From Siniperca chuatsi (lineage: Eukaryota; Chordata; Actinopteri; Centrarchiformes; Sinipercidae): a DNA stretch of 64,000 nt. Made by a program: the position numbers and the translations under genes. Under the pieces are notes generated by a model. That model had not been told where the DNA came from and searched no databases. It saw nothing but the letters and a program-made list of their open reading frames with translations. Of the stretch, positions 1 to 63,405 are shown in pieces (the stretch's first letter is position 1; each line of letters starts with the position of its first letter). The stretch is from contig NC_058046.1 in the NCBI RefSeq assembly GCF_020085105.1, positions 27,498,175 to 27,562,174 on the forward strand. Direction: 5' to 3'.

Positions 1-215
1 GAGAGACTGACATTACTAGAGCCACGGCACAACCATGGCTAAAAAAATGTTTAAATGAACAAAATTAGATGGCAATAATCTACTTCTCATTCTTTATTTT
101 GTGTTCACTCATAGAATGTTTATTATTCTGTCATCATCTGGGCCATAAAAAATGAAAAGGGATCCCAGGGTGTTTCTTAATAGTAGTGTTTCTCCTCTGA
201 CCCCACATGCAACAG

Positions 216-28800: not shown

Positions 28801-31800
28801 TACTACAATTTAGAGTACTTCATAGGCTCCACCTGACCTGCAGCAAATTGGCAAAGCTCTTTTCAGGAGTAGGGAGTAGGAGAGGATTTTTGGACATGGG
28901 TTTTTGATACCTATTACCTTCAGATAGTTTTATAAATTCTGGAAACCTTTTCTGCTTTATTTTTTTTATAAAATTTTTCCTTTTCCTTTTATATTTTGCA
29001 TGTGTGGGGTGGATTTAGGCTGATGTTGGCGTGTGTGTGGTGGGTGAGTATGTGTGAGCAGTTTGTTTGCTGATTTGTATTGTGAAAATTCAATAAAAAT
29101 GTTTTAATAAGAAAACTCTCTGATGACTCCTCTCTCACTTAATGTGCAGCTGATATGGACAGGCCGTACGTCAGCTACTAAAGTAAACATTAGCCACGGA
29201 GAGGAGGTGGTGGTCAGTTACCTGCCGCTCAGCCATGTGGCAGCCCAGATATTTGACATGTGGATGTGTGTTAGTTTCGCCATGACCACCTACTTTGCAG
29301 AGCCAGATGCCCTCAAGGTAAAGATGCCTACTGTTGTATAAAACATGGAATTAATAATGAAGGTTTCATATAATGACTATGAGCCCCATTCATTTTACAG
29401 GGCTCCTTAGTAAACACACTGAAAGAGGCTCGTCCAACTTGTTTCCTGGGGGTTCCTCGCGTGTGGGAGAAGATGCAGGAGAAGATGAAAGCTACCGGTG
29501 CCAAGGCATCCCCAATGAGGAGGAGTGTGGCGGCCTGGGCCAAGTCCATAGGCCTGCAGTACAACTACAGTGTCATGAACGGGTGAGAAAGCAGCAAGGA
29601 TCCTTTGTTAGAATCTGAATTTGAAATTTTGACCCAATGATAGCGCTAGATGTTAAGTGAGGGGATAATATACTTATCATCAACAGTATCATAATCCACT
29701 TTCCACTTTGTACTTTCCACTTATTTTAATTTTATAGTTATATCCACTTGACCTTAATTTATCTTACCTGTATTATAGTGTATTATATTTGATTGCTTAG
29801 TACTTCTATTCCTGTGTGCACTGATGTGATAGTGAGCTGCTGTAATAAAAGACTTTCCCTTCGGGGATCAATAAAGTATTTCTGATTCTGATAATCAAAG
29901 TGGTTACAATTCATCCTGAGGGGGACTTGAATGTTTATACTAAATTTCATGGCAATCAAAGGTAACAGCGAGAATTTTTATAAGGACTACTTTTGCATTC
30001 CCTCGCAATATATTTTGTGTTACTCTCGCAATACTTTTCTTTTTCCATTCCTTCAGAGCCATATGTCTATTTCCGCACAGCTGCTCACAGCGCCACACAA
30101 CAGTATATCAGCTCATTGAATTTTACTTTGAACTGGGCAATAAGTATGCTGATATAGTGCTACTGCTCAATAGGCATGCATCGTTATGTCATTAGCGAAA
30201 GTAAAAGTAAACAAATTTTTTGATCAAGAGGTCTCTCCAAAAGAAAGCAGTACGGTAATCTGCAGGATGCTGTTGGTTACTGTACTCTGTGCTCCTCTGG
30301 ACCTCAGAGGGGTTTCACTGAGGAAAAGGGGATGTCTCCAGAGGCGGAATTACAGATGTGCAGTTGAATCTACCTCACAAAGCTAATGTGCTGTATTTAA
30401 GTCAAAAAAAGCAACAAACACGAAGGTGACTGAAATGCTGCAAACGGAGTCTGTGGTTCTGTCACAGAGAGAGCAGACAGCACTGAACCACTTGCAGAGA
30501 TACATCAGGAACGCAGAGCAAGTTGGAAAGCTTTTTGCGTTTTTGCACAGGGTCCTCTGTTCTTTGCACAAATCAAATTTAAGTAACCTTCAATGCTGAA
30601 ACAGGTTTTGGTAGAAGGCCTTTCGCTGTAAGTATAGAGCAATAATTGATGCTCCTTATACACACAGCTCCTACCCAGAAGTTTGATAATGTTCTATCTG
30701 ATAACTTTTTTGCAATAGACTTTTTATAAGGTGAGGTGTCCATAAACAATGCGTAATGCATTAATTTGAGAATCTCCGCACTACCTTCCATTTCAAATAG
30801 ACATATGGCTCATAAGAAATGGAATAGCAAAAGTATTGCAAGGGAATGCAAAAGTAATCCTTAAAAAAATTCTCGATGTTTCAGTTTTGGCCCCTGTTCT
30901 TAATTCCTAACAAATTTTAACCTCAAAAATATAACTTACTTTATCTTTTGGGTTACAGGGAGAATCTGGTGCCGTGGGGCTTCATGCTGGCTAATAACCT
31001 GGTCTTCAAGAAGGTGCGTGCTGCGCTGGGCTTAGACCGCTGTAAGTACTGCTTCACAGGCGCTGCCCCCATCACCAAAGAAACTTTGGAGTTCTTCATG
31101 AGCCTGAACATCCCGCTGTTGGAGCTATACGGCATGAGTGAGAGCTCCGGCCCACACAGCGTCCCCTGTAACAACGAATACCGCATCACAAGGTCAGCAG
31201 CAAAGCATTATGGAACGTGTCAACTATAATTAAAATGCATTGTTGATATGGATGTGAGAATACTTCAAGATGCTGTAACCTGTATTTTTCTCTCCAGTGA
31301 AAAGATTACTTAAAGGGGAACTAATCCACAGGTTTTTTCACATTTCTCTTTACAAGTGATGTCACTTGAGTCAGCGTGGGTTGGGGCTGAAGACTACAAG
31401 TTTGAAAATGAAAGAAATCTAGCGGTGTGGAGAAAGTGGTGAGCTACTAGCATCACCCAAATCTCTGACCAAACTGTTGGCGGTCGAGTTGCGTTGTGGG
31501 TAATGTAGGCACCAGGTTTTGACAAGGTAGAAGAATGCGTGGAATAAAAAAGACAATATCTTGCATCAATTTTGATCCTTTTTTTTTAACTGTCCATCGT
31601 GAGTCAGACGATGTTAAATCCGTGGAGCACTCTTTTAAAAGTTGCACTTGACTATATTGTTATAGATTTCCTCCTAAATGAAGAAGTAGGATCCCATCCC
31701 CAATAACTGGTGCATTCCATGTGAAACTGGTAAAAAAAAAACGTTCCAAACAGCGATCAAAGCATCATCAAGCATACTTATCATACATTTAAATCTTCAG

Positions 31801-34800
31801 TAACTAAGTTTTTGGTGACTAGGGGTCAACGAAAACAAGCTGTAAACACAAGACTGACATGTTATCACCCTATAAAGTTGCTAGCAAACAGTTGTCTATT
31901 TGCACATGCAGTAGATGCGGAGCAGCAACATTAGCCTTCATTTGCAGTCGTGTTTCAGGCCACCTGATGGATGTGAGTCCAATATTCACTCTCCTTTTAG
32001 CTCTGTTTTAGTCTCCACCATCTCCTGAGGGAAATATGTGGCTCTTTAGCTGCTAAATGCTCCACTGTGTTCACCAGGTAGCTGCTAACTTTGTCTGTCT
32101 GTTGTTTGGTGCTGGGCAGGTAGCGTACAGTGGGTTTATTTGCTGGGAACAGCTGCTGCCAAAAACGTTGCTGATGAGAGCTGTGAGAGTGAACCAACAT
32201 AGAAGTTAGTTAGGGGCCGGAGATAAGGTGAATGAATGTTTGACGAGTTATGCAAATGTATATATCTATGGCGGTCTTACATTAAGTTAAAGTCAAAATA
32301 GCTCAACGTAGGTTAAAGAAAATTAGTCACGTGAAATCAAAGTATCAAAACAACAAACGGTATTAAAAGATAATCAACAACCTTAAAAGAGTGCGGTTTT
32401 TCCAACCTAATAGCTAAGGAGGGGAAGAGAAAACTGCATGTTAAATGGTTGAAATGTATATATTTTATAAATATTTTGCAGAATGCAACCCTGGACACGT
32501 GTATGAATATTTGTCTGCCTATAAGGATGGATGAGTCAAACAGAAAGCTGACTTCTCAACATTAGGTCTTTTGCCTCGTGGTATTTTCAAATCAGTAATT
32601 CCCAAACTGGGGGTTGGGACCCTCCAAGATAAATCTGAAGGGTAACAAGATGAGCAAAAAGGAAAAGAAAGAAAATAGATATTTGTGTTGTATGAAATTC
32701 TATGTTTTTAGACTTTTCTCTAGTTTTTGCTTCTTTCTTGTGAAATACTGGACTCTTTTCGTTTCGTCAGGCCTCTAAATGTCCTAATCCTGTTTTGTAA
32801 AGCACTTTAGGATACATCTTTGCATGGAAGGTGCTATAAAAATATAGTTTTTATTGTTATTATTGTTATTATAACTTGTCTTGCGGGATTACTAGCAGAC
32901 ATTCATTTGTTTTTAAGATGTCACAAGCCAAAAAACTCTTTCACTGCTTTAAATAATCAGCCAGGTTTGTGTATTTTTACCTGTAAATGTTTTTCATAGT
33001 TTACTGACATTATGTTATCTCATTTATATGTGCTAAACTTCAAAGCAGGGGTGCCGTTGTAATGCAACTACTAGTGTAGGTCAGCATCAGGTCTAAAGGA
33101 GCATGTTGTTGACTTATGATTTGTCTTACCAGCTGTGGAAAGGTGATGCCAGGCTGCAAGACGAAGCTGGAGAACCCAGATAAGGATGGAAGTGGAGAGA
33201 TATGTTTCTGGGGTCGGCACGTCTTTATGGGCTACCTGAACTCGCCTGACAAAACAGTGGAGGCTCTTGACGAGGACGGCTGGCTGCACTCTGGAGATCT
33301 GGGAAGACACGACCAGCACGACTTCCTGTACATCACAGGAAGGATCAAGGGTAAGCTCAAAAAAGCATGTTCTTAATTTGGGGGGGGGATGCACTGCAAG
33401 AAGCATTTTGGATTATTTTTGGTATGAAACATGGATTTGTACAGGTTCACTCATCTTTGTCAGCTTTTCAGTGTTTGGTCCAAACAAAGATATGAGCATT
33501 TGGGATATCCCAGTAGTATTTATTTAAGAGTCACTGGTGGAAAGTAACTACGTACATTTATTCTGCATTATTTATTTATGTAATTTATCTGTACTGTACT
33601 TAAGGACAATTTTGAGGTACTTATAAGACTTGATACTTCAGGGAAATATTGCACTGTACTCCACTACATTTATGTGACAGCTGGAGTTACTAGTTACTTT
33701 GTATATTAAGATTTCACATAAAAAATTATATACATGATAAGATTGTTAAAATGCAGCCAAATACTGGATTTTTTGGGACTTATATTTGGGAGAAATATCC
33801 GATAATGATAACAAAGCATCTTGATACGGATTCCTTCGATTTGTCTTTTTGAAAGAATTGTGACCAAGATACAAACTGAGCGTGACATGTTACAGTAAAC
33901 TATGTAATGGTGACACTGTTTCTAAATTACCTTAAACCTAGTTTGGCCCTTCTGTACTGCAATTTCATATAAACTCCAGGAAAAGAACACAATTAAATGC
34001 TCATTGTGTTTAATTATAAAATTAGATGCTGAACATTGGCAAACAGGTGACACACTTTTGAAACTAAACTTTTTTGCTCTTTTTTGCACAGAGCTGATCA
34101 TCACCGCCGGTGGAGAGAACATCCCTCCTGTCCCCATTGAAGACGCAGTGAAGTCCGAGGTGCCCATCATCAGCAACGCCATGTTGCTCGGAGACAAGCT
34201 CAAGTTCCTCTCCATGCTGCTCACCCTCAAAGTAACTGGGTCTCCATTCCTGCAGACAGTCACGGCTAATAAATAAATACAACAAATGCTATAATGACCC
34301 TTCTCTCTGTTTCCAGTGTGTCACGGACGACAACTGTGAGCCCACAGACGAGCTGAGCCCCAAGGCTTTAGCCTTCTGCCAGCAGCACGGCGTCACAGCA
34401 GCCAAGGTGTCGGAGATCATAGCCAATAAGGAGCCAGCTATCTACAAAGCCATTCAAGAGGGCATGGAGCGCGTCAACACCAGAGCAACATCCAACGCCC
34501 AGAAGATCCAGAAGTGGGTCATACTGGAGCGAGACTTCTCTGTCGGTGGAGGAGAACTGGGTGAGTTATTTTGCTTCATTTTATGACTCTTCCTTTTCGT
34601 GTTAAAACTGGAGCAAAGGTCTACACACAATAACAGTATTAAGGAACGAGGAAGTAGTCACTACAGTCGCTTTTTAACTTACTGTTAAGTTTAATCAGCT
34701 TTTAATCAAGGCCATGTCGTAATCAGACAAGCCTTGCAACTGTGCCGCATGCCAGAAAACATTCCAGTGAAGTTTGTTTGACTGCGATTGAATCTCTCCC

Positions 34801-34942
34801 TCGTCAACAGTTAAATTAACCCGCTTTCCTTTTTTTCTTGTCTGTGCAGGACCCACCATGAAACTGAGGAGGCCCATTGTTGTGAAGATGTACCAGGAGA
34901 AAATAAAACGAAATGTATGCAGTGGCCACGGGAAAACAGTAG
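22866..34942 (+). CDS. acsbg2: Bubblegum-type long-chain acyl-CoA synthetase (left copy)
   Basis: Fourteen coding exons: 22866-22930, 23112-23317, 24514-24797, 25578-25663, 26370-26490, 26602-26682, 26884-27033, 29150-29317, 29401-29582, 30959-31192, 33133-33350, 34092-34231, 34317-34560 and 34850-34942. The product is ~757 aa, with a Ser/Thr/Pro-rich N-terminal ~100 residues and then a full AMP-binding enzyme: P-loop YTSGTTGKPKG (~314), YLPLSHVAAQ, GVPRVWEK, YGMSESSGPH (~505), GWLHSGDLG (~576) and ITAGGENIPP. It forms acyl-CoA from long and very-long-chain fatty acids with ATP. Three frame problems exist: exon 4 loses 2 nt near 25,624 and 1 nt near 25,657, so 11 residues replace the conserved NSPEW..VG segment; and an extra A in 34,905-34,908 shifts the last codons, so the literal frame runs on to 35,157. 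All lie in short homopolymers. ACSBG2 rather than ACSBG1 is a preference only. Confidence 0.92.
27120..27362. mobile_element. AGCTGCAACTAA-family MITE in an ACSBG intron
   Basis: It begins AGGGCTGCAACTGACGATTG, contains CGATTAATC near both ends, and closes with CGACAGCTCT. It shares the TCAAAACCCAAAGATA internal motif with other copies in the window. Confidence 0.6.
27363..28260. repeat. Unclassified repeat-like intronic DNA
   Basis: No gene is visible. The segment at about 27,840-27,930 (AAGAGGACCCAACATTGAG followed by CCTTGGGGATCTC) resembles a motif found antisense in fish retroelements, so an old insertion is likely, but I cannot assign a family. Confidence 0.3.
28269..28612. mobile_element. 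hAT/Charlie-like MITE
   Basis: The ends are CAGTGTTTTTCAACC and GGTTGAAAATCACTG. The flanking octamers GGATAGAA (28,261-28,268) and GGATAGTA (28,613-28,620) match at 7 of 8, a clear hAT target-site duplication. It lies in the 2.1-kb ACSBG intron between exons 7 and 8. Confidence 0.85.
28625..29115 (+). mobile_element. LINE (L1-like) 3' fragment
   Basis: A broken frame in sense orientation encodes a segment with LQWEEELGSQIS, then RVLHRLHLTCSKLAKLF after a frame change, resembling the C-terminal part of an L1-type ORF2. The insert ends with AATAAAAATGTTTTAATAAG. It stops only ~35 bases before ACSBG exon 8 (29,150). Confidence 0.6.
29690..29884 (+). mobile_element. LINE 3' tail
   Basis: The segment ends with CTTCGGGGATCAATAAAG followed by TATTTCTGATTCTGAT, a standard fish non-LTR retrotransposon tail with short repeat units. 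It is absent from the corresponding place in the right duplication arm, so it marks the outer limit of visible homology on the left. Confidence 0.65.
29970..30874. mobile_element. Foldback-type MITE with ~100-bp inverted termini
   Basis: The left end starts CGAGAATTTTTATAAGGAC and the right end closes with the near-inverse GTAATCCTTAAAAAAATTCTCG (shortened here). Inverted similarity runs on for ~100 bases through TTTTGCATTCCCT and GCCATATGTCTATTT. The interior (~700 bases) has no coding potential. It is missing from the right arm, so it inserted after the duplication or was lost from that arm. The target-site duplication is unclear, and the superfamily is unassigned. Confidence 0.8.
31330..31650. 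repeat. Dispersed repeat shared with 10.8 kb and the right arm
   Basis: The block contains TGATGTCACTTGAGTCAG, TGGGTAATGTAGGCA, TTGACAAGG and TTTTGATCCTTT in the same order as 10,815-11,150. It lies in the ACSBG intron after exon 10, and its inverted counterpart is at about 62,390-62,700. Confidence 0.6.
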
Positions 34943-35593
34943 ACTGGGCTGCACAGAGATCAGATAATACTGAAGAGAAACTTTGGGGCATGTTTATGAA
35001 CATTGTATTGTGCCCAGACGTCATGTTGAGAAATGTATACACCTCTTTTCACCTGAATGTTAAAAGTGCAAAAGAGCTTTGTAATTTAAGCGGGAAAAAT
35101 CTTGATTCTGATTGTGTTGTATTTAATGGATTAGAGGTTTGTGCTGCTATGTTTTAATATGTCAAGTTTCTGTCGTCTAAGCTGTTAAATGTACATACAG
35201 TTTCAAAGCAGCTGTGCACGTTTTGTAAATGAAAACATCCAAATCAGAGCCAAAATCTTGCCACTGAGTGTACGGCATATACAGGTGAATTGTACAGTAT
35301 CCTCAGCACCAAAGCTACATGCAGGGCGGGAAACACTGCCTGGTGTCCTCATTTAGGGAAGTTAACTTTTACAAAATACTCCCCATCTGGCAAAGTTGCA
35401 GACATTACCTCTAAAGACTGCCAGTGATGTTTGAATAAGTATTTTTATAATGTGATAAGAATATCAGTAGTCTGAAGTTCACCAATCACACGCATGTGTA
35501 AATTGTAAAGCATACATTTTCATTTGTGCTTCTCCATGTACAGTTTGATAAATATTGAAATGTTTCTTTTGTGATAGATGTTCTATGTTTATC

Positions 35594-35599
35594 AATAAA
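35594..35599 (+). terminator. acsbg2: Poly(A) signal of left ACSBG copy
   Basis: AATAAA lies ~650 bases after the expected stop (34,942), followed by an A-rich and then T-rich stretch. The equivalent hexamer occurs in the right copy at 57,413-57,418 on the minus strand, so the signal is conserved in both arms. Confidence 0.65.
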
Positions 35600-35689
35600 A
35601 AGTGAAGGATCTGGACAAATTAACCAAACCAGGTTCAAAAATGTGTTGGTTTATTTCTCCCACGAATATTTTAGGATTTTAGGATAATG

Positions 35690-36125
35690 ACTTTGGTGAT
35701 GCTTTGACTTTTCTTCAAGCGCCTCCATGACGTTGACATTTGAGGTTTTGAGTGAAACTATTGGATGGATTGCCATGAAGTTTGTTCATTCATGTTCACA
35801 TCAGAATAAATTGTAATTTTAAAAATTGTAAATTGTCACTTTTGTGCTCCCCTGACATTTCATTTAGCGCCATCATCAGGTCAAATGTGTCCAATACTTT
35901 GGTTTATGACTAAATACCTGCAAAATTAATGACATTTCCATCAGCTTTTGTTTTTAGTGCTAGCAAATGTTAGCATGCTAACACGCTAAACTAAGAGAGT
36001 AAACATACCTGCTAGCATAGTCATTGTGAGCATGTTAGCATGCTAACATTAGCTGTTAGCTCAAAGCACCACTGTGCCAAAGTGCAGCCTCACCGAGTCG
36101 CTAGCATGACTGTAGGCTTAGTCTT
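35690..36125. repeat. Dispersed TTAGCATGCTAA repeat (left-arm copy)
   Basis: The segment contains several GTTAGCATGCTAAC-type palindromes and an AGCTCAAAGCACCACTGTG motif. It matches 46,080-46,725 (same family, direct) and 56,880-57,300 (inverted, right arm). It is a common fish repeat without coding capacity. Confidence 0.7.
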
Positions 36126-37599
36126 GTTTCTTGATAAATGACTTAAAATAAAACTGTTACATATCAAAACTGAGATTAATTTTCTGTTAATTATTCCACT
36201 AATTGTTTTAGCATTTCAAAGATTACCATCTCACTTATTCTGAAGTGGATAGGCTCCACGTCTATAATGTTACTCACCTTAAAAGTCGTTAACTTTTAAC
36301 CAACTTTTTTACATTATTTTATGGGCTTTTTTAAGATCTTTTGGGAGTTAGGGTTGCTAAGGATATTTTTTCACTGCTACTCGTTTTCACGAACTCAAAC
36401 TTGACACATAAAATACAGAAAAACTATACGATGTAATGTATTGTCAAAAATGACTAGGGTCAGTGCGTTTTAATGATTAAATTGAACACTGATGTGCAGC
36501 TGAAAATTAATGTTTCATGACCCTTCAAAAGGTCTTTTTTGCACAAAGCTGATCATCACTGTCTACATTTCTCTTTATTGATTTTGATTTCTGATCTGTT
36601 TACTGTAAGTGGGCCTCATGGTTTCTGCCACGTCACTGCAGATCCTGCTGATTAGTTTGGCATATTTATCTGTGCTGTTGTTCTGTTTCTTCACCTCGAA
36701 TTGTACAAGAAACATCTAGAAAAATTCCCTTTACGCTCACACACACACACATCAGATTGCATTCTGGAACAACTGGTTGTGTTGCTTCTCATTTCAGAGC
36801 AGTTTTTCAGATAAAGTTACGTCAGCATTTCTCCTAAAACTGTCTCACTTCAGCTGGAAGGAATGAGAATATATCCAAACATCTTATCCTCCAGCATAGT
36901 TTGAGTATTTAAACTGTTTGTACAGGGTTGGGCTGATTCACTGCACTTTCACTACAGGCTCTTTGCATCTGACAAGGTGTACTGATAATGACGTCAGGTC
37001 AGGTCTGATACATCTGGTACATCAACACACTCATCGCTGGGTTTCTGAACACAAGGAAACTGATCTTAATCTTCCCACTGGCTGGAAGACAACATAAATT
37101 GGCCCTGTCTTACATGACCTCTGACCCATAAATGTTTTGTCATTTTCTGTGAAAGATTCAACTCAGAATATAGAAATATGTATTAAAATAATCTACTGGT
37201 GGCTGCAGTGGACACAAAAGCAGCAGCGTTCCCAGGTGAAGAATGAAAAAGGTTAGTTTTAGAAAGGAAGTGAGCCAATCACACGATCTCTCTGTCTCTG
37301 TTTTCATTAAATTTAACATCCTCTATTGTCACAACATTCACCCTGAGACAAATACCCTCATGCTCTCTCTCCAAGTGCATGTCTTACTTTACCTCATACT
37401 TTAATGAATCAACATAACAAGCCTCTCTCCATTTGTTTGTCACACTATTAATCTTTTTTCTACACACGTCAGATTTGCACCAAAAGGGATTTTCTTCCAT
37501 GCATCATGAGACATTTCCACAACAGACCATAAAGCCATTTTCAATACTGTTTGTATGACAACTTCTTTGTATAAATTAATTACTTTTTTCTTATTGTGT

Positions 37600-37937
37600 C
37601 ACGCATATAACTATGCACAGCCCACACGCACTTACAAGACACCATAAATTCATACAAGCCAGGACCGGAGCGCTGCGTATACATTTCCAAACAACAGAGA
37701 AAGTCCAAAAATAGAAACAAAACAGAGTGTCATTGTCTACAACTAAATTTAAAAAAATCACTGATAGGAACATTTACGATATAGCAATAACTGCTAATTA
37801 AATAATCCATCTTGCCTTCTTTTCAAGGCTTTAGAGATAAAGTTAGAAAACTTCAAACATTCAAATTTATTGCTTAAATATTTCAGGGTTTTTTTTGTCG
37901 AGAGACATTTCATGGAAAAGTAACTCTCTTAAATTAC
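37600..37937 (-). mobile_element. Truncated LINE fragment at the left-arm inner boundary
   Basis: This is the reverse-strand equivalent of the LINE tail at 55,040-55,400. Here the element breaks off at 37,937, whereas in the right arm its reverse-transcriptase C-terminal coding continues outward to about 54,680. Confidence 0.6.
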
Positions 37938-37941
37938 ACAA

Positions 37942-38155
37942 GCTCACATTTGTTCCTATATGATCGGTGCTTATGTCAAGTTAAAAAGTAGACAAACGTA
38001 TTTACAACCTCCATGATGGTGAAGTTGACTCTCTGTGTACCATCAACAAATGAACATTGTAACCTTCATAAAAATAGGATTTATTGCAGGACTGTTGCAT
38101 TAGTTTTAAGTAAGTTTAGATTACTTAATAAACTGTCAACTGTGTATAACTACCA
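37942..38155. repeat. Second inverted repeat, left half
   Basis: The segment beginning AAGCTCACATTTGTTCC is an approximate reverse complement of about 39,780-39,990. Shared motifs include TATATGATCGGTGCTT, TTACAACCTCCATGAT and AATAGGATTTATTGCA. It starts immediately after the left arm of the large inverted duplication ends. Confidence 0.8.
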
Positions 38156-38157
38156 CC

Positions 38158-38330
38158 TTGAGCCTTAAAGGTCCAGTGTGTAATATTTAGGAGGAGCTAT
38201 TGGCAGAAATTGGAATAAATTATTTCTAAGTATGTTTTCAAATGATTTCAATGAGTGGTTTTTATATTCAAGGGTTTATAATGACATCAAAAAAGTTTTG
38301 TCTTCAGTTACTTTGACTCTCAATAGTTAT
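38158..38330. mobile_element. Diverged, truncated copy of the AGGTCCAGTGTGT MITE
   Basis: It begins GCCTTAAAGGTCCAGTGTGT and continues with AGGAGCTATTGGCAGAAA, as in the copies at 45,435 and 63,672. No right terminus is recognisable. Confidence 0.65.
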
Positions 38331-39500
38331 CTTTGCTAGACGCAGGAGAGTAGTGTGTATCAACGTTAGGCTTAGAGTTACATGAACTGAATTACTTACA
38401 TGGTGGAGAATTGTTAAAACTCACATTTGTCAAACATGGATTTGGCTTATTTGCTTTGGTTAATACTTGTGGAGACGTCCCTATATAATATAGCCTAGGC
38501 CTACGTGAAATGTCTTCCTACAGTTCAAGGGATCATGCTTTCAATCAATACCCCTAACACTGCTGCTACTGCAATTACTACCTTGTTTTTCAGGCACCTT
38601 ATCAATATCATACTAATAAGAGCCATCCCAATAACAGGCAAATAGTAGTAAATAAATAAATAATGATAACAAGATTAGTAAAAGTGATCTGAATTTATTG
38701 AAATAATGGTACAGCAATTTTAAAATAACCAAATAATAATCTAACAGCATAATTATTAATCATTGGTTTCACACATTACACTGTCACCACTGTTCATTGC
38801 AGTAATACCCCCAAAAATTAGTTTATGTTAAAACCAGATCTCAATAAATACAGTTTGTGGCTTGTTCCCTTAAAGAGTGTCCACTGAGCCTACATTTAGT
38901 TAGGGCTAGCAGATACCAATTTTAACCAACCATTTTAAAAGTAATACAAGTCTTGATTAAACTAACACACAATTAACAGCAGTTCTTAACAGCAGATGAC
39001 ACATCGATCAGCACCTTCTGTAACAAAAAAGACGATTGTCTGAGTGTTAGATGTTTGTTCACATATAAAAAAAAAAAGCATTATGATTAGACAACTATTA
39101 CTAAAACTAGTTCTGCTCTTGCCTCTTGTTACAGACAACACAACCTTTGTGTTTACATTAATTAATTTAGAAAGAAGACACTAGTGAACAGACAGTCAGC
39201 ATCGTCACTGATTAGCTTACTTTCTAACGTTGAAGAGCGTTTGGCGGTTACATGTAATTTAGCGACCGTTATATCGCTGATGTTTTAGCTAACAGATTCG
39301 ATTAGTTGGGCACTAATTTCACATTAAAATATACATCTTGGGATTTAGTTTTCAGTACCTAAGACATTTATTTGAAAAGGTCATTAATCTCCTTCTGCGT
39401 ATTACCAAAACATAATTTTAAATCCATATTAAATATATTAAACTCATAACTTTTTGAAACCCATTTCTTTTCAGACACACCTGAACGCTACCGCTCTTGA
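38331..39500. other. Non-coding DNA, no feature seen
   Basis: AT-rich DNA with no supportable gene, RNA gene or element boundary. It is the loop between the halves of the smaller inverted repeat. Confidence 0.4.
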
Positions 39501-39540
39501 ACGCCTCCCTCACGTGACGTTCAAACGTATGGCGAAGGTG
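39500..39540 (+). promoter_or_regulatory. Possible promoter / first exon with E-box and CRE-like motif
   Basis: TCACGTGACGT combines a palindromic E-box (CACGTG) with an overlapping CRE-like TGACGT. It is followed by ATGGCGAAG directly abutting a good donor (gtgagt at 39,538). Together they resemble a short 5' exon, perhaps of the reductase gene at 43,308. The exon there has an upstream acceptor (43,211-43,212), but reading through from ATGGCGAAG meets a stop, so if used it would be non-coding. Confidence 0.3.
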
Positions 39541-39779
39541 AGTGAGCTAATGTTGGTTTGCTAAGTTAGCTCGCAGCCTTTAAGCTGTTCTCTCTTTTAT
39601 CTGGATAATACTTAACGCCAAACTGTGATGTTTTCGGAGAAATGTGGCAAAAATGTTTGTTGCTCCGCTTATTGAATAACATAAATACCTTTACGGAAGG
39701 GGTGTATTTGAGGCGCGCAAAAAACACGAAACACAAATTCACCCTGGTTAGATTAGGGTTCTAGTTAAAATGTGGTAGT

Positions 39780-39990
39780 TTATACACAGTTAATAGTGTA
39801 ACCTACTTAAAACTAATGTTATCTAATGCAACAGTTCTGCAATAAATCCTATTTTTTGTGACGGTTACAATGTTCAATTTTTTGTTGGAACAGAGAGAGC
39901 CAACTTTACAATCATGGAGGTTGTAAATTAGCTTGTCTAGTTTTCAACTTGACACAAGCACCGATCATATAGGAACAAATGTGAGCTAAT
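39780..39990. repeat. Second inverted repeat, right half
   Basis: Approximate reverse complement of 37,942-38,155, with scattered substitutions and small indels. The interval between the halves is about 1.6 kb. Confidence 0.8.
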
Positions 39991-50752: not shown

Positions 50753-50784
<32 letters not shown>

Positions 50785-51442
50785 ATCTATCTTAAAATGT
50801 CGACAGAATAGTGCTTAGTTACAAAATGTAGAGGAACCTATGACTCCTCTCGGTAACACAATCATTTGCTAAGTGAGGTTTATACACTTACCTGAATGAA
50901 AATGCCTGGAACACACTTTAAATGATCTTGGGATGTCTGCGAAATGTATGTCCGTACGTCTTACGGCGGATATCCAGGCCATCTGTCTCCGCTTTGTTAC
51001 ATCAGACACATGACTTCCTTCATTTTGTTTCCAGGCCGGAAAACAATAAAAAGAAAGACCGTTGTCTATTTTTCTCCCACGTCGATCGTGTGAACGGACA
51101 TTACATCCAACAACACAGCAGGTTCTTCCCATGACTAAAACTTTGTCGGCGCTTCAGAACAAGTGGCCTCACAATATGGCGATTTTTCCCATCAGCCATC
51201 GCGGCGCTAGAGCCGTTACGTCACGCCCCCATACTCTAAATGGAATGGCATAATGGAAGTCTGTATGAGTCTGTTTAAGGCTGATTTTTCACTGGAAGAG
51301 CAGAATATATTTCTATAATTCTGAATTTCAAACTTAAAGTACTACAATTAAAGCCTTTTAAATTCATAAAATAATGTCTTGTAATTATGGGATGTAACTT
51401 ATTTTGTTTTTCAGGATCTGCTTCTGTTTACAGTGGTTTAAT

Positions 51443-51521
<79 letters not shown>

Positions 51522-52478: not shown

Positions 52479-54679
52479 GAAAGAAGAGAGACAGGGTCGG
52501 TTCACCCAAAGTACAAAAAAACTATATTTACTCACCAACCTCTAGTGGTATCTAGCCATGCAAATATTTTTCTTAAATTTGAGATATCGGCCTTCTAGTC
52601 AACCTTTGTTTCCAGCAGCAGCAGGGTGCTGTTTTCAGCAAAATAGCTCTGATAAATCCACTGTAGGCTACCTGCTGCGCACCAAAAAGCAGACAGACAA
52701 AGTTAGCGACTAGCTGGTTAATGTAGTGGAGCATTTAGCAGCTAAAGAGCCCGATATTTCCCCCAGGAGTTGGTGGAGAGCAAAACAGAGCTAAAAGGAG
52801 AGTGACTCACATTCATCATTTTTCCAGAAACTTGCTAACAAGTTCACAACAGCTTTCTAAGGTGATAATATTGTCAATGTTGTTACTGCTGTAAACTTCA
52901 ACAGTAAAATCTCTCTTCAGACACTGTGTTTCCATTACTCTGGATAATCCCAAGGACCTCACCGTAAGCATTTTTCACTGGAACTACTTTTTATCGAAGA
53001 ACCAGTCCCTATGAAAACTGTTGATTGCACGCTGAGGGAATTATGCAGACTGAGGATGTAATTTCTAAAAAGAGATGTTTTTTTTTAAATGTTTCAATGC
53101 TGTGAGCACCACAAACAAAAGTCAGTTCACCTCTATAGTAGTAGTGACATTGCAGTAACAGCAGAAATTATATTTTTAACCCCTGGGTAAATAAGCCAAA
53201 AATATCGTCATGGTTAGATACCACTAAAACAATGGAGAGAAAAAAAAAGTGTTTTTAATTTGATTTAACAAAATGTGCAGTCTATTGACACACTGCCTTC
53301 AGTCTACTACTGGATAAAATGGTATAACTGCCTTATATAGCCTAATCTGTCTGGTGAATGTCTTTTTATTTACTCTTGTTTAACATATTCTTGTTTTTAT
53401 ATGTTTGAAAACCATCAGTAAGTGTACCATTTAATTATGTTGGTTTCTACTGATTGTAGTACATGATTCAATTCAGTTTTATTTATATAGTGCCAATTCA
53501 TAACAGAAGTTATCTCATTGCGCTTTTCCTATAGAGCAGGTCTAGACCTTCCTCTTTATATTATTAATATAAACAGACCCAACAAATCAAATGATTATGA
53601 TTTCAAAAACAAATGATTTCAGCCACATGGGGTGTTGTGCCATATCTGGTAGCAGAAAGAGAAAGTCAGCTGGGTTTCCAACATGTCCATTTGCTGTTTT
53701 ACTTACAGCTACTAGTTGATATCTCATAATGAATGAAAATCTTCATACTGTACTCACATGAGTACTTTATATTTAAATATGTACTGTATCAGTTCTGTAG
53801 AATAAACACACAATAATGAAACTGAGAGCGGGTCATTTGTGCTGGAAGTGCAGAACGAGAGCTTACAAGTCAGACGACTTGGTGGGTTTTGGAAGTTTTG
53901 GAAATCCTGGGTGGTTCAACAATCCCTTTGACTTCTGATTTATGCTTACAAGAAGATCTGAAATACCAAATACTGCTTGTCAACTATTTCATCTACGATA
54001 GTTTAATGTTTCAAGGTTTCAACATTGCAGAATTCTCCAGTATTTCAGATTTTCAAGTATGCCGACCTCAATCTGTGACATAAAAGCAGGTGCTTGATCT
54101 CATCTGTCAAAGTAAAACACCTGGCTGGCTTTGATTCTAGTGATCTGGGTATGGTCAGGTGTGCAACATGCTTAGAAGTACGTGAACAGTGTAGAGAAAG
54201 TCAAGATATATGTAAGATATATTGTCATGGACACATCTCAAGTTATCCACAGATTGATATTGTGTTATGTTTTCACCTCTTTCATTATTTCTGCTAAGAG
54301 AGGGGTATTTTTCTAAAAGCAGGATCAGGAAGTTCTTTTATCTCAAGTTTCATTATTAGAAATTCCAGCATGCATGATTGCATAATTTTTATAAATCTAA
54401 TATGCCGCGTTCAAGCCTAATATTCAAATTCCATATTAATGGATTTGAAGGAAACTTTGAAAGTCTAATTATTTTTATTTTTATATTGACCTAAAGTTAG
54501 TATGGCTTCTAACGACTATCAATTTCCTGTTTTAAGCTTTGGTTCTTACCCACACTTGCACATTAAACATGTAACTCTATGGAACATATAAAATGACAAA
54601 AAGTACATCTTAAAACAGAGCCCAAAACGTGATAAAGAAGTAGAAAGGCTCCATTGAAGGTCCCTAAAAAAGTTTAATA
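52479..54679. other. Non-coding DNA downstream of the reductase
   Basis: No supportable gene. About 52,665-52,810 (ACAGACAAAGTTAGC, GGAGCATTTAGCAGCTAAAG) is a dispersed repeat also found in both duplication arms (about 32,000-32,130 and 61,925-62,060). AATAAA-type signals for the reductase are not obvious close to its stop; one occurs at about 53,802. Confidence 0.4.
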
Positions 54680-55400
54680 CCGAATGGCCACATGGTTCTG
54701 CAATACTCAGCTGCCATTCCAGCAATTCAGGGAGACATAAGCTGGGTACCAGGATCACAAAAATGTGAAACGATAAGACTGTGGAATCATCTGATCAAAA
54801 TGGGGAGGATACATAATATTATAGCTTCTATTGAAGTTTGAAATGGTTTGAAAATATCTCGTCAAAGCCAAAATTAAGGACATATCTAGCTAAAGTTTGG
54901 CCCTGAATATATGTTATATCTCATTTATCAAGAAGCCAAAGATCTAAAGAGCTGGTATTCAGGAGGAAAACCAATTGGGAGCTGTGTGTTTGAGTGGAAA
55001 GTGAGTCCCATTTTCTTTTGTACTGTACAACTTTTAATGATTTAAGGGAGTTACTTTTCCATGAAATGTCTCTCGACAAAAACCCCCTGAAATATTTAAG
55101 CAAAAAACTGGAATGGCTGTTTAATTTCGATGTGTTTAAGTTTTCTAACTTTATCTCAAAAGCCTTGAAAAGAATGCAAAATGGATTATTTAATTAGCAG
55201 TTATTCTGATTTTTCCAGTGCTACATCGTAAATGTTCCTATCAGTGATTTTTTTAAATTTAGTTGTAGACAATGACACTCTGTTTCTATTTTTGGACTTT
55301 CTCTGTTGCTTGGAAATGTATATGCAGCGCTCCGGTCCTGGCTTGTATGAATTTATGGTGTCTTGTAAGTGCGTGTGGGCTGGGCATAGTTATATGCGTG
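54680..55400 (+). mobile_element. LINE reverse-transcriptase C-terminal fragment
   Basis: Broken frames encode RLWNHLIKMGRIHN, GSCVFEWKVS, then ESESHFLLYCTTFNDLREL (55,000-55,060) and ALKRMQNGLF. This resembles the HFL..C..(Y/F)..LR zinc-finger-like motif at the C-terminal end of many fish LINE polyproteins. The element spans the inner boundary of the right duplication arm (about 55,040). It is degenerate and immobile. Confidence 0.65.
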
Positions 55401-56879
55401 ACACAATAAGAAAAAAGTAATTCATTTATACAAAGAAGTTGTCATACAAACAGTATTGAAAATGGCTTTATGGTCTGTTGTGGAAATGTCTCATGATGCA
55501 CGGAAGAAAATCCCTTTTGGTGCAAATCTGACGTGTGTAGAAAAAACATTAATAGTGGACACACAAATGGAGAGAGGCTTGTTATGTTGATTCATTAAAG
55601 TATGAGGTAAAGTAAGACATGCACTTGGAGAGAGAGCATGAGGGTATTTGTCTCAGGGTGAATGTTGTGACAATAGAGGATGTTAAATTTAATGAAAACA
55701 GAGACAGAGAGATCGTGTGATTGGCTCACTTCCTTTCTAAAACTAACCTTTTTCATTCTTCACCTGGGAACGCTGCTGCTTTTGTGTCCACTGCAGCCAC
55801 CAGTAGATTATTTTAATACATATTTCTATATTCTGAGTTGAATCTTTCACAGAAAATGAAAATTGATAAAACATTTATGGGTCAGAGGTCATGTAAGACA
55901 GGGCCAATTTATGTTGTCTTCCAGCCAGTGGGAAGATTAAGATCAGTTTCCTTGTGTTCAGAAACCCAGCGATGAGTGTGTTGATGTACCAGATGTATCA
56001 GACCTGACCTGACGTCATTATCAGTACACCTTGTCAGATGCAAAGAGCCTGTAGTGAAAGTGCAGTGAATCAGCCCAACCCTGTACAAACAGTTTAAATA
56101 CTCAAACTATGCTGGAGGATAAGATGTTTGGATATATTCTCATTCCTTCCAGCTGAAGTGAGACAGTTTTAGGAGAAATGCTGACGTAACTTTATCTGAA
56201 AAACTGCTCTGAAATGAGAAGCAACACAACCAGTTGTTCCAGAATGCAATCTGATGTGTGTGTGTGAGCGTAAAGGAAATTTTCTAGATGTTTCTTGTAC
56301 AATTCGAGGTGAAGAAACAGAACAACAGCACAGATAAATATGCCAAACTAATCAGCAGGATCTGCAGTGACGTGGCAGAAACCATGAGGCCCACTTACAG
56401 TAAACAGATCAGAAATCAAAATCAATAAAGAGAAATGTAGACAGTGATGATCAGCTTTGTGCAAAAAAGACCTTTTGAAGGGTCATGAAACATTAATTTT
56501 CAGCTGCACATCAGTGTTCAATTTAATCATTAAAACGCACTGACCCTAGTCATTTTTGACAATACATTACATCGTATAGTTTTTCTGTATTTTATGTGTC
56601 AAGTTTGAGTTCTTGAAAACGAGTAGCAGTGAAAAAATATCCTTAGCAACCCTAACTCCCAAAAGATCTTAAAAAAGCCCATAAAATAATGTAAAAAAGT
56701 TGGTTAAAAGTTAACGACGTTTAAGGTGAGTAACATTATAGACGTGGAGCCTATCCACTTCAGAATAAGTGAGATGGTAATCTTTGAAATGCTAAAACAA
56801 TTAGTGGAATAATTAACAGAAAATTAATCTCTAACAGTTTTGATATGTAACAGTTTTATTTTAAGTCATTTATCAAGAA

Positions 56880-57300
56880 ACAAGACTAAGCCTACAGTCA
56901 TGCTAGCGACTCGGTGAGGCTGCACTTTGGCACAGTGGTGCTTTGAGCTAACAGCTAATGTTAGCATGCTAACATGCTCACAATGACTATGCTAGCAGGT
57001 ATGTTTACTCTTTTAGTTTAGCGTGTTAGCATGCTAACATTTGCTAGCACTAAAAACAAAAGTACAGCTGATGGAAATGTCATTAATTTTGCAGGTATTT
57101 AGTCATAAACCAAAGTATTGGACACATTTGACCTGATGATGGCGCTAAATGAAATGTCAGGGGAGCACAAAAGTGACAATTTACAATTTTTAAAATTACA
57201 ATTTATTCTGATGTGAACATGAATGAACAAACTTCATGGCAATCCATCCAATAGTTTCACTCAAAACCTCAAATGTCAACGTCATGGAGGCGCTTGAAGA
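56880..57300. repeat. Dispersed TTAGCATGCTAA repeat (right-arm copy)
   Basis: Inverted counterpart of 35,690-36,125; it contains two GTTAGCATGCTAAC palindromes within ~65 bases. It was part of the duplicated segment. Confidence 0.7.
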
Positions 57301-57412
57301 AAAGTCAAAGCATCACCAAAGTCATTATCCTAAAATCCTAAAATATTCGTGGGAGAAATAAACCAACACATTTTTGAACCTGGTTTGGTTAATTTGTCCA
57401 GATCCTTCACTT

Positions 57413-57418
57413 TTTATT
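57413..57418 (-). terminator. acsbg2: Poly(A) signal of right ACSBG copy
   Basis: TTTATT on the plus strand is AATAAA in gene orientation, ~650 bases after the stop at 58,070, at the same relative place as in the left copy. Confidence 0.65.
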
Positions 57419-58069
57419 GACAATCATAGAACATCTATCACAAAAGAAACATTTCAATATTTGTCAAACTGTACATGGAGAAGCACAAATGAAAATGTAT
57501 GCTTTACAATTTACACATGCGTGTGATTGGTGAACTTCAGACTTTTGATATTCTTATCACATTATAAAAATACTTATTCAAACATCACTGGCAGTTTTTA
57601 GAGGTAATGTCTGCAACTTTGCCAGATGGGGAGTATTTTGTAAAAGTTAACTTCCCTAAATGAGGACACCAGGCAGTGTTTCCCGCCCTGCATGTAGCTT
57701 TAGTGCTGAGGATACTGTACAATTCACCTGTATATGCCGTACACTCAGTGGCAAGATTTTGGCTCTGATTTGGATGTTTTCATTTACAAAACGTGCACAG
57801 CTGCTTTGAAACTGTATGTACATTTAACAGCTTAGACGACAGAAACTTGACATATTAAAACATAGCAGCACAAACCTCTAATCCATTAAATACAACACAA
57901 TCAGAATCAAGATTTTTCCCGCTTAAATTACAAAGCTCTTTTGCACTTTTAACATTCAGGTGAAAAGAGGTGTATACATTTCTCAACATGACGTCTGGGC
58001 ACAATACAATGTTCATAAACATGCCCCAAAGTTTCTCTTCAGTATTATCTGATCTCTGTGCAGCCCAGT

Positions 58070-61000
58070 CTACTGTTTTCCCGTGGCCACTGCATATATT
58101 TCGTTTATTTTCTCCTGGTACATCTTCACAACAATGGGCCTCCTCAGTTTCATGGTGGGTCCTGCACAGACAAGAAAAAAAGGAAAGCGGGTTAATTTAA
58201 CTGTTGACGAGGGAGAGATTCAATCGCAGTCAAACAAACTTCACTGGAATGTTTTCTGGCATGCGGCACAGTTGCAAGGCTTGTCTGATTACGACATGGC
58301 CTTGATTAAAAGCTGATTAAACTTAACAGTAAGTTAAAAAGCGACTGTAGTGACTACTTCCTCGTTCCTTAATACTGTTATTGTGTGTAGACCTTTGCTC
58401 CAGTTTTAACACGAAAAGGAAGAGTCATAAAATGAAGCAAAATAACTCACCCAGTTCTCCTCCACCGACAGAGAAGTCTCGCTCCAGTATGACCCACTTC
58501 TGGATCTTCTGGGCGTTGGATGTTGCTCTGGTGTTGACGCGCTCCATGCCCTCTTGAATGGCTTTGTAGATAGCTGGCTCCTTATTGGCTATGATCTCCG
58601 ACACCTTGGCTGCTGTGACGCTGTGCTGCTGGCAGAAGGCCAAAGCCTCGGGGCTCAGCTCGTCTGTGGGCTCGCCGTTGTCGTCCGTGACACACTGGAA
58701 ACAGAGAGAAGGGTCATTATAGCATTTGTTGTATTTATTTATTAGCTGTGACTGTCTGCAGGAATGGAGACCCAGTTACTTTGAGGGTGAGCAGCATGGA
58801 GAGGAACTTGAGCTTGTCTCCGAGCAACATGGCGTTGCTGATGATGGGCACCTCGGACTTCACTGCGTCTTCAATGGGGACAGGAGGGATGTTCTCTCCA
58901 CCGGCGGTGATGATCAGCTCTGTGCAAAAAAGAGCAAAAAAGTTTAGTTTCAAAAGTGTGTCACCTGTTTGCCAATGTTCAGCGTCTAATTTTATAATTA
59001 AACACAATGAACATTTAATTGTGTTGTTTTCCTGGAGTTTATGTGCAGATTTAGCCTTTTTTAAGAAAAATATTCAGTTATCATCAAGTTACCACCCCCA
59101 ACTCTTAAGGCCAACTTCCTTTTCAATCTAATCTAAAAAGACAAAAAAGATCATGTAAAAACAAAGTTTGTTGAAGCTAATGACATGTGTTTTAGAGTTA
59201 TGTGTTTTAGCATCGGATTATATAAACCTTTTCAAAATAAAAAAGTGCAGTTGCATGTGCCATTTTCGCAATCTACAAGTGCGATAGTCTTGTAGTGCTG
59301 AAATGATTAGTTAAATAATTTATATAGTCATTTATCAAGCAAAAATGCATTTACTGGTTCAAGCTTCTCAAATGTGAGGTTTTGCGATCTTTGTCTTTTT
59401 TATCTAATTGTAAATTATGCTGCATTCATGTCATATTGAATTTACTGTAATTATGAGTTACCGTCTCAGAACTTTAAAAGTACTCAGATCCTCTACTTAA
59501 GTAAAAGTACCAATACAACAATGTGTCGGGCCCCTCCAAAGCATCCCAAGATAAATCTGAGTGGTTGTGAGATGATTAATCGGAGAGGAAAGAAGAAAAA
59601 AGTAAGTTCTGCTACACAAATTTCATATTCATTTTCCAGACTTTTCTCTAATCTTTGTGTTTTTTGTGAAATTTTGGATAATTTTACTTCTTTAGGGCCT
59701 CAAACCGTAATTTTAAACTAGGTTTAAGGTAATTTAGAAACAGTGTCACCATTACATAGTTTACTGTAACATGTCACGCTCAGTTTGTATCTTGGTCACA
59801 ATTCTTTCAAAAAGACAAATTGAAGGAATCCGTATCAAGATGCTTTGTTATCATTATCGGAGATTTCTCCCAAATATCGATATTAGTATCGCCGTTAAAA
59901 AATCCAGTATTTGGCTGCATTTTAACAATCTTATCATGTATATAATTTTTTATGTGAAATCTTAATCTAAAAAGTAACTAGTAACTCCAGCTGTCACATA
60001 AATGTAGTGGAGTACAGTGCAATATTTCCCTGAAGTATCAAGTCTTATAAGTACCTCAAAATTGTCCTTAAGTACAGTACAGATAAATTACATAAATAAA
60101 TAATGCAGAATAAATGTACGTAGTTACTTTCCACCAGTGACTCTTAAATAAATACTACTGGGATATCCCAAATGCTCATATCTTTGTTTGGACCAAACAC
60201 TGAAAAGCTGACAAAGATGAGTGAACCTGTACAAATCCATGTTTCATACCAAAAATAAGTAAAATAAAAATGCTTCTTGCAGTGCATCCCCCCCCCCAAA
60301 TTAAGAACATGCTTTTTTGAGCTTACCCTTGATCCTTCCTGTGATGTACAGGAAGTCGTGCTGGTCGTGTCTTCCCAGATCTCCAGAGTGCAGCCAGCCG
60401 TCCTCGTCAAGAGCCTCCACTGTTTTGTCAGGCGAGTTCAGGTAGCCCATAAAGACGTGCCGACCCCAGAAACATATCTCTCCACTTCCATCCTTATCTG
60501 GGTTCTCCAGCTTCGTCTTGCAGCCTGGCATCACCTTTCCACAGCTGGTAAGACAAATCATAAGTCAACAACATGCTCCTTTAGACCTGATGCTGACCTA
60601 CACTAGTAGTTGCATTACAACGGCACCCCTGCTTTGAAGTTTAGCACATATAAATGAGATAACATAATGTCAGTAAACTATGAAAAACATTTACAGGTAA
60701 AAATACACAAACCTGGCTGATTATTTAAAGCAGTGAAAGAGTTTTTTGGCTTGTGACATCTTAAAAACAAATGAATGTCTGCTAGTAATCCCGCAAGACA
60801 AGTTATAATAAGAATAATAACAATAAAAACTTTATTTTTATAGCACCTTCCATGCAAAGATGTATCCTAAAGTGCTTTACAAAACAGGATTAGGACATTT
60901 AGAGGCCTGACGAAACGAAAGAGTCCAGTATTTCACAAGAAAGAAGCAAAAACTAGAGAAATGTCTAAAAACATAGAATTTCATACAACACAAATATCTA

Positions 61001-63085
61001 TTTTCTTTCTTTTCCTTTTTGCTCATCTTGTTACCCTTCAGATTTATCTTGGAGGGTCCCAACCCCCAGTTTGGGAATTACTGATTTGAAAATACCACGA
61101 GGCAAAAGACCTAATGTTGAGAAGTCAGCTTTCTGTTTGACTCATCCATCCTTATAGGCAGACAAATATTCATACACGTGTCCAGGGTTGCATTCTGCAA
61201 AATATTTATAAAATATATACATTTCAACCATTTAACATGCAGTTTTCTCTTCCCCTCCTTAGCTATTAGGTTGGAAAAATCATATTATTCCAAACTGACT
61301 GTATCAGTCTCAGCTTGTTCCAACTCTTCTTTGAAGCTATATGATGTTTATACTGAGTGAAATGTTCAAACCTGAGACTCCATGTTTTTATGGCTGCACT
61401 GGTCCATTAAATGTATATATTCCAGATGTCATGCGCATCATTTATACACATTTCCCCATATATCAACCTGATGTATTTGGTATCTTTGGAAGCTTTGGGA
61501 TCTCCACTGGAGAGTAAATTAAGTTCTGAGAGTTTGATAATGTTGGGTTGCAGTGAGAGTCAGCGAGGTTTAAGGGTGTTAGAGCCATTTTATTTAATGA
61601 GCTTGAGGTTAAGGACAAAGGAAAGAGATGCCGTAGAGAAACCGCACTCTTTTAAGGTTGTTGATTATCTTTTAATACCGTTTGTTGTTTTGATACTTTG
61701 AATTCACGTGACTAATTTTCTTTAACCTACGTTGAGCTATTTTGACTTTAACTTAATGTAAGACCGCCATAGATATACACATTTGCATAACTCGTCAAAC
61801 ATTCATTCACCTTATCTCCGGCCCGCAACTAACTTTTATGTTGGTTCACTCTCACGGCTCTCATCAGCAACGTTTTTGGCCGCAGCTGTTCCCAGCAAAT
61901 AAACTCTGATAAACCCATTGTACGCTACCTGCCCAGCACCAAACAACAGACAGACAAAGTTAGCAGCTACCTGGTGAACACAGTGGAGCATTTAGCAGCT
62001 AAAGAGCCACATATTTCCCTCAGGAGATGGTGGAGACTAAAACAGAGCTAAAAGGAGAGTGAATATTGGACTCACATCCATCAGGTGGCCTGAAACACGA
62101 CTGCAAATGAAGGCTAATGTTGCTGCTCCGCATCTACTGCATGTGCAAATAGACAACTGTTTGCTAGCAACTTTATAGGGTGATAACATGTCAGTCTTGT
62201 GTTTACAGCTTGTTTTCGTTGACCCCTAGTCGCCAAAAACTTAGTTACTGAAGATTTAAATGTATGATAAGTATGCTTGATGATGCTTTGATCGCTGTTT
62301 GGAACGTTTTTTACAGTTTTCATATGGATTGCACCAGTTATTGGGGATGGGATCCTACTTTTTCATTTAGGAGGAAATCTATAACAATATAGTCAAGTGC
62401 AACTTTTAAAAGAGTGCTCCACCGATTTAACATCGTCTGACTCACGATGGACAGTTTAAAAAAAAGGATCAAAATTGATGCAAGATATTGTCTTTTTTAT
62501 TCCACGCATTCGTCTACCTTGTCAAAACCTGGTGCCTACATTACCCACAACGCAACTCGACCGCCAACAGTTTGGTCAGAGATTTGGGTGATGCTAGTAG
62601 CTCACCACTTTCTCCACACCGCTAGATTTTTTTCATTTTCAAACTTGTAGTCTTCAGCCCCAACCCACGCTGACTCAAGTGACATCACTTGTAAAGAGAA
62701 ATGTGAAAAAACCTGTGGATTAGTTCCCCTTTAAGTAATCTTTTCACTGGAGAGAAAAATACAGGTTACAGCATCTTGAAGTATTCTCACATCCATATCA
62801 ACAACGCATTTTAATTATAGTTGACACGTTCCATAATGCTTTGCTGCTGACCTTGTGATGCGGTATTCGTTGTTACAGGGGACGCTGTGTGGGCCGGAGC
62901 TCTCACTCATGCCGTATAGCTCCAACAGCGGGATGTTCAGGCTCATGAAGAACTCCAAAGTTTCTTTGGTGATGGGGGCAGCGCCTGTGAAGCAGTACTT
63001 ACAGCGGTCTAAGCCCAGCGCAGCACGCACCTTCTTGAAGACCAGGTTATTAGCCAGCATGAAGCCCCACGGCACCAGATTCTCC
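58070..63085 (-). CDS. acsbg2: Second bubblegum acyl-CoA synthetase copy, 3' half (partial)
   Basis: Five exons on the minus strand: 63085-62852, 60544-60327, 58919-58780, 58694-58451 and 58161-58070. They encode the C-terminal ~309 residues. All splice sites and frames are intact. Motifs are YGMSESSGPH, GWLHSGDLGRH, ITGRIKELIITAGGENIPP and the adenylation-domain C-terminal Lys region GGELGPTMKL. The end is KINEIYAVATGKQ and a stop, intact here but frameshifted in the left copy. Differences from the left copy include NGEP for NCEP, SPEA for SPKA, QQHS for QQHG and NEIY for the shifted NEMY. The first nine exons would lie right of the window, and the left intron preceding the same exon is ~1.4 kb, so a complete second gene is possible. 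If it is only these exons, it would lack the ATP-binding motif and be inactive. Confidence 0.93.
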
Positions 63086-63179
63086 CTGTAACCCAAAAGA
63101 TAAAGTAAGTTATATTTTTGAGGTTAAAATTTGTTAGGAATTAAGAACAGGGGCCCAAAATGAAACATCACCGAGAAGG

Positions 63180-63400
63180 CAATGTCGGTCTGTCCATTGG
63201 TCCACCACTTTGGCCCAGAAAGAAGTATCTCAACAACTGTTGGATAGATTGATTTTTGGATTAACTTTTCATCTAGCGCCACCATGAGGTTGACATTTGT
63301 GGTGTTTAAGTTAAATGACCCAAACAACTATTGGAGTGATTGCCATGAAATTTTGTATAAACATTGATGTCCCCCTCAGGATGAATTGTAACCACTTTAA
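63180..63400 (-). repeat. Dispersed fish repeat, part
   Basis: In minus orientation it contains CATCCTGAGGGGGAC and AAATTTCATGGCAATCA, and on plus GTCCACCACTTTGG and GGTTGACATTTGTGG, as at 46,080-46,400. A shorter piece is at 29,890-29,960 in the left arm. Confidence 0.6.
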
Positions 63401-63405
63401 TTATT

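Follow-up and report, generated by a model that had tools for sequence, protein, structure and literature searches.

Two convergent ACSBG2-like genes in inverted arms

The window analysed here is a stretch of 64,000 nt from Siniperca chuatsi (NC_058046.1:27,498,175-27,562,174, forward strand; genome of 718,788,923 bases in 65 contigs), and it harbors a large inverted duplication in which two ACSBG2-like genes, encoding predicted acyl-CoA synthetases, lie tail to tail with a reductase gene between them, as shown in Table 1. All coordinates are window positions, with values above 64000 lying on the same contig past the window end. Self-BLAST of the window recovered inverted arms at 30875-37934 and 63169-55040, in pieces that are 97.6-98.2% identical with gaps counted, which confirmed the large inverted duplication proposed from the window's letters alone (hereafter the original prediction). 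For the arm comparison, the window was joined to neighbouring sequence of the same contig, 60 kb on the right and 40 kb on the left, giving 164 kb with 0 N bases, and the BLAST homology was found to extend to 21753 on the left and 71135 on the right, with sharp ends. Each arm is therefore about 16 kb long, about double the approximately 8 and 8.4 kb first supposed, so that the inverted homology stood while the size did not; the spacer, put at 17 kb, measured 17,105 bp. Chance similarity of the arms is excluded by the 12 collinear exons that each arm carries, and chance or a plain transposon repeat as the source of the arms was rejected by the arm homology together with the gene models. The inverted duplication is genuine and longer than earlier noted. 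It concerns a known enzyme gene and is of a known kind, new in its place, and what is notable is the diverged island at exon 6 and its recurrence in other fishes.

Table 1. Positions of the arms, genes and diverged segments
Feature	Coordinates	Strand	Size or content	Basis
Left arm	21753-37934	+	16,182 bp	BLAST vs right arm
Right arm	55040-64000 in window, on to 71135	-	16,096 bp total	BLAST
Spacer between arms	37935-55039	.	17,105 bp	BLAST
Left ACSBG2-like gene	24475-34942	+	12 modelled coding exons	Splice-checked model, arm alignment
Right ACSBG2-like gene	58070-64000 in window (exons 8-12); exons 1-7 at 68296-64594	-		Splice-checked model
Divergence island	29094-29282	+	189 bp: end of intron 5 and most of exon 6	Arm alignment
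Left intron 5 segment without a real right counterpart	27235-29012	+	Partly dispersed repeats	
Left intron 7 segment essentially unrelated to right intron 7	29593-30872	+	Includes 0.9-kb element with terminal inverted repeats	
Reductase-like gene in spacer	43308-52478	+	At least 4 coding pieces; NAD_binding_10 (NAD(P)-binding), E 9.3e-38	Pfam on joined pieces

The arms carry several private inserts of 0.24-0.92 kb each, and those that had been predicted are all present, namely a 0.9-kb element with terminal inverted repeats (TIRs) on the left, and segments of 362 bp and 407+241 bp found only on the right in the arm alignment. The terminal repeats of the left element are imperfect, and it belongs to a high-copy family, with at least 60 genome matches for positions 30000-30600, self included.

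Both ACSBG loci that had been placed around a reductase gene proved to be full length, with 12 modelled coding exons and GT-AG borders at all 11 introns in the left and right genes alike. The five exons known to be shared are exons 8-12 of 12, with lengths of 234, 218, 140, 244 and 93 (left) or 92 (right), and the remaining exons of the second gene (exons 1-7) do follow past 64 kb, giving it a full span of 68296-58070 (-); a truncated second ACSBG2-like gene was rejected on this ground. The right copy has 680 residues, no stop and an intact frame. Its best database match is P0001, the long-chain-fatty-acid--CoA ligase ACSBG2-like isoform X2 of Siniperca chuatsi, which covers 98% of it at 100% identity, with the next fishes at 79-90% (best 120 of 7992 candidates). 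The AMP-binding domain PF00501 was detected in P0001 (E 6.2e-76), and the P-loop SGTTGKPKG closes exon 5 in both copies. By sequence, both copies belong to the ACSBG2-like acyl-CoA synthetases, for which fatty-acid activation is predicted. Both arms also contain the coding sequence further upstream that the long form P0001 uses, and on the left these upstream exons are intact.

The reading frame of the left copy is open, with its short-form in-frame start lost. Two small indels in left exon 2 jointly keep the frame and leave a scrambled stretch in which 10/28 aligned residues are changed, and a frameshift in left exon 12 produces a longer C-terminal tail. The exon 2 and exon 12 changes are 1-2-base indels in short single-base runs, where the arms are otherwise identical, and the alterations of the left copy may be Nanopore consensus errors. 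In passages of the genome paper, the assembly is given as a Nanopore assembly of 718.79 Mb, with Canu, WTDBG, Racon and Pilon (PMC9321114); polishing may fail at the left copy because its short reads would fit the right copy better. If this is true, near-identical inverted copies in Nanopore assemblies can hold false frameshifts. The amino-acid differences that the original prediction had mentioned are present, but within the window they are minor, comprising three in exon 11 and the frameshift of the last exon.

A divergence island at exon 6

The collinear core of the arms, taken without their uneven outermost and innermost ends and without segments lacking a match, contains 141 substitutions in 12,652 aligned columns, and these are distributed very unevenly. 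As many as 29 fall within 182 aligned columns of a single island (16%), against 112 in the 12,470 columns outside it (0.9%), an excess with a binomial tail of 4e-27 that none of 1000 block shuffles reached (maximum 20). Left exon 6 lies at 29150-29317, so that the island takes in most of it. The excess is not one of amino-acid changes only, since silent sites and the intronic flank of the island are raised as well, the latter differing in 11/49 columns. Nonsynonymous (dN) and synonymous (dS) divergence between the copies reach 0.108 and 0.144 in exon 6, compared with 0.003 and 0.020 in exons 3-5 and 7-11 pooled (eight exons, exons 1, 2 and 12 being omitted because of indels), and the dN/dS ratio is ~0.75 in exon 6 against 0.14 elsewhere. 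The two genes are near-identical over most of their length and strongly diverged in one exon, silent sites included.

The surroundings of the island form a mosaic. Intron 6 and exon 7, which belong to the same block as the island, are again ~99% alike. Only short stretches are shared in intron 5 (2116 bp left, 440 bp right) and in intron 7 (1376 bp left, 1508 bp right), and introns 3, 4, 6, 10 and 11 are equal in length within one base between the copies. Outside the island the divergence is also uneven, with 9/1964 columns differing at 22035-23999 against 24/1520 at 30873-32396, as patchy conversion would give. The arms had been described as stemming from a duplication old enough to diverge, and this holds in part: the 0.9% outside the island alone would suggest a young event, whereas an older one is indicated by the exon-6 block and by the lack of relation between the copies in introns 5 and 7, features at or beyond the margin of the sequence then comparable.

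The island is short, its edges are sharp and the bases just outside it are ~99% alike, features that would also be expected if a recent duplication had been followed by the copying of an exon-6 patch from a more distant third ACSBG gene, or by its introgression. We regard such a patch as quite improbable, as the two further ACSBG loci found in the genome, on contigs C6 and C4, are only 56% and 42% identical in exon 6, and the unrelated introns 5 and 7 would be left unexplained; a third near copy that could have served as exon-6 donor was not found in the genome search (54/54 candidates scored). The closest database match to left exon 6 was P0001, at 82% (best 120 of 139), and left exon 6 as an entry of its own was not among these best 120 of 139, in which, entries being clustered at 90%, it could be hidden. 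Two alternative exons 6 inside one gene were rejected as well, with one exon-6 match found per copy in the same search.

Divergence of about 1% also occurs between fish haplotypes, and the two arms could in principle be two haplotypes that were wrongly placed as an inverted duplication. Such an artefact is conceivable in a Nanopore assembly (PMC9321114), but the k-mer heterozygosity of S. chuatsi, stated as 0.05% in passages of the same paper (PMC9321114), is far below the arm divergence outside the island. The opposite orientation of the arms on either side of 17 kb of other sequence, the several arm-private inserts, the lack of any N in the 164 kb examined, and the occurrence of ACSBG2 pairs in other fishes all make it a very remote explanation.

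ACSBG2 pairs of other fishes and the proposed gene conversion

A total of 12 same-genome fish pairs, Siniperca included, were drawn from the best 120 of 7992 candidates and compared exon by exon, with 190 between-species comparisons of 20 hand-picked proteins as the baseline. The pairs of other fishes are known from proteins only, and the entry pairs of Dicentrarchus and Gasterosteus may be two genes or alleles/isoforms. In relative terms, exon 6 was more diverged than exons 10-11 in 11 of the 12 pairs (the exception being Sphaeramia) and more diverged than exons 3-5 in 10 of the 12 (the exceptions being Siganus and Sphaeramia), whilst exons 10-11 (128 residues) showed zero differences in half of the pairs (6/12). 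The two Cebidichthys copies, for instance, differ at 0/128 residues in exons 10-11 and at 11/56 in exon 6, and the A copies of two species, Cebidichthys and Zoarces, compared as a control, differ at 7/128 and 7/56, respectively. Between fish species, too, exon 6 varies more than any other exon (mean 0.273). A wider diverged block, with exons 7 and 8 besides exon 6, was seen in P0004/P0005 (Symphorus), P0033/P0057 (Gasterosteus) and P0063/P0064 (Siganus).

Phylogenetic trees were built from hand-picked rows, with 53 of the 122 aligned rows in a quick tree, 24 rows in a careful analysis of the cottioids and 22 rows for Siniperca; the A and B labels of the cottioid copies were assigned after inspecting exon 6. 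With exons 3-5 and 9-11, the copies of a species came out as sisters in the quick tree for 10 of the 12 species, all except Zoarces and Lycodopsis. With exon 6 alone, the same rows gave sisters in only four of the 12 (Sphaeramia, Dicentrarchus, Siganus and Symphorus) and no resolution for Siniperca, while the copies stood apart in all seven cottioids, the B copies of several cottioid species grouping with 82-83% support and the zoarcoid B copies with 96%. In the 24-row analysis, exons 6-8 rejected a same-species clade in five of the seven cottioids, Zoarces, Lycodopsis, Cebidichthys, Gasterosteus and Pseudoliparis (p 0.00009 to 0.037). With the rest of the gene, a grouping of all nine B copies was rejected (p 0.00026), and same-species copies were united as sisters, likewise in five of the seven (Gasterosteus, Cebidichthys, Pseudoliparis, Cyclopterus and Clinocottus). 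The left (L) and right (R) copies of Siniperca group in the rest of the gene with strong support (100/99, 22 rows).

We consider it probable that the Siniperca locus is an inverted ACSBG2-like pair under non-allelic gene conversion, from which the exon-6 island escapes. The segmental duplication is real, spans the entire ACSBG2-like gene in tail-to-tail layout and has 16-kb arms around the 17-kb spacer with its reductase gene; arm-to-arm conversion would since have kept exons 1-5 and 8-12 and most of their introns alike, so that this homogenisation would make the arms look younger than the duplication. The exon-6 stretch would escape owing to the homology lost in introns 5 and 7, a barrier that would hinder conversion across exons 6-7, and perhaps also because selection may maintain two exon-6 versions. 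In their proteins, the ACSBG2 pairs of other spiny-rayed fishes show the same mosaic as Siniperca, and an older age in Siniperca would be suggested by the island seen in its DNA, by the replacement of introns 5 and 7 and by analogy with these fishes. The original prediction had also held such a palindrome to be prone to gene conversion, which the mosaic here and the like mosaic in other fishes support indirectly.

In exon 6, which comes after the P-loop, one segment aligns with 'LPMFHIYAL' of plant 4CL, part of the chimeric protein 3tsy; its structural placement is drawn from three sequence alignments, with plant 4CL and with luciferases. This segment we take to be the substrate pocket or gate region of acyl-CoA ligases. 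More speculatively, and as a doubtful though possible extension, conversion might repeatedly homogenise the pair in several spiny-rayed lineages, Siniperca among them, with selection repeatedly keeping two exon-6 versions that would lead to two substrate preferences in proteins that are the same in all other respects.

Several observations weigh against conversion with an escaping exon 6. Sphaeramia runs contrary to the exon pattern and Siganus to part of it. Exons 6-8 do not reject a same-species clade in Cyclopterus (p 0.083) or Clinocottus (p 0.19), and for Zoarces and Lycodopsis the rest of the gene does not join the copies as sisters (24 rows), so both tree signs occur together in only three of the seven cottioids (Cebidichthys, Pseudoliparis and Gasterosteus), the other four showing one. 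Siniperca L and R also group in exon 6, with weak support (72/38, 22 rows), and the trees therefore do not show an age beyond the family; the species-wise grouping of exon 6 in Siganus, Symphorus, Dicentrarchus and Sphaeramia likewise means that they do not show a single ancient shared duplication. True damage to the left copy would mean that two versions are no longer selected for in Siniperca. Neither the trees nor the database matches singled out another fish as nearest to L or R in exon 6.

Some of the same evidence would suit a duplication that arose recently within the Siniperca lineage and saw no notable conversion, with very rapid evolution of exon 6 in one copy under positive selection or local hypermutation. 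The arms differ little outside the island, variability between species likewise peaks in exon 6, its dN/dS ratio is high, and L and R do group in exon 6, if weakly. Against this, the silent sites and the intronic flank are raised too, the replacement of introns 5 and 7 is confined to the surroundings of the exon-6 block, and the cottioid pairs show the escape on trees, suggesting that rapid evolution of a single exon is an unlikely explanation.

The inverted pair has known parallels. Mammalian sex-chromosome palindromes are large inverted repeats with near-identical arms around a spacer, kept alike by conversion. The Siniperca arms differ from them in measuring 16 kb, in lying on an ordinary contig and in having a putatively non-converting block inside. 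The human genes RHD and RHCE face each other with a gene between them. In the excerpted text of Ohta 2010, which reviews Innan's two-locus model, this pair appears as conversion-homogenised duplicates with fixed differences clustered in one exon and selection opposing conversion (PMC3966226). The likeness to Siniperca lies in highly alike duplicates with differences clustered in one exon; the Rh genes, as described there, encode primate blood-group membrane proteins and come with population data, whereas the Siniperca pair is read from one genome and the proteins of other species.

The vertebrate ACSBG2 (bubblegum) acyl-CoA synthetases are the same gene, from which Siniperca differs by its two convergent copies and the exon-6 island, human ACSBG2 being single. 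Passages on the human gene report an inverted duplicate of exon 7 within an intron, ~94% identical and with no sign of constraint (PMC2671141), which is likewise a local inverted duplication in the family but of one exon and not a second gene. Two missense variants of human ACSBG2 are also reported to bear signatures of balancing selection (PMC7058154). No publication joining ACSBG with concerted evolution was found in the literature searched, which leaves most subscription papers outside. If conversion with an escaping exon 6 is true, ACSBG2 of spiny-rayed fishes would represent a recurrent natural experiment in which gene conversion is opposed by selection on a single exon, and fish ACSBG2 duplicates would appear too young in gene trees.

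Spacer contents and flanking genes

Besides the reductase-like gene, the spacer contains transposon remains, comprising a YqaJ-type nuclease frame at 47747-48921 (+), a DDE_Tnp_4 transposase frame at 49303-49899 (-) and a THAP domain frame at 50869-51153 (-). A search of solved structures with one open frame of the spacer gave no match. A 2-kb TIR element at 37941-39987, with inverted ends of ~220 bp that are 84% alike, starts at most 10 bases from the inner left junction, and it may be either the cause of the duplication or a later guest. An AT-rich, self-complementary simple repeat of ~84 bp at 51442-51525 translates as IIII/NNNN. Outside the arms, the window harbors part of a MALT1-like gene at 201-707 (+) and the gene for mitochondrial ribosomal protein S30 at 15573-16208 (-).

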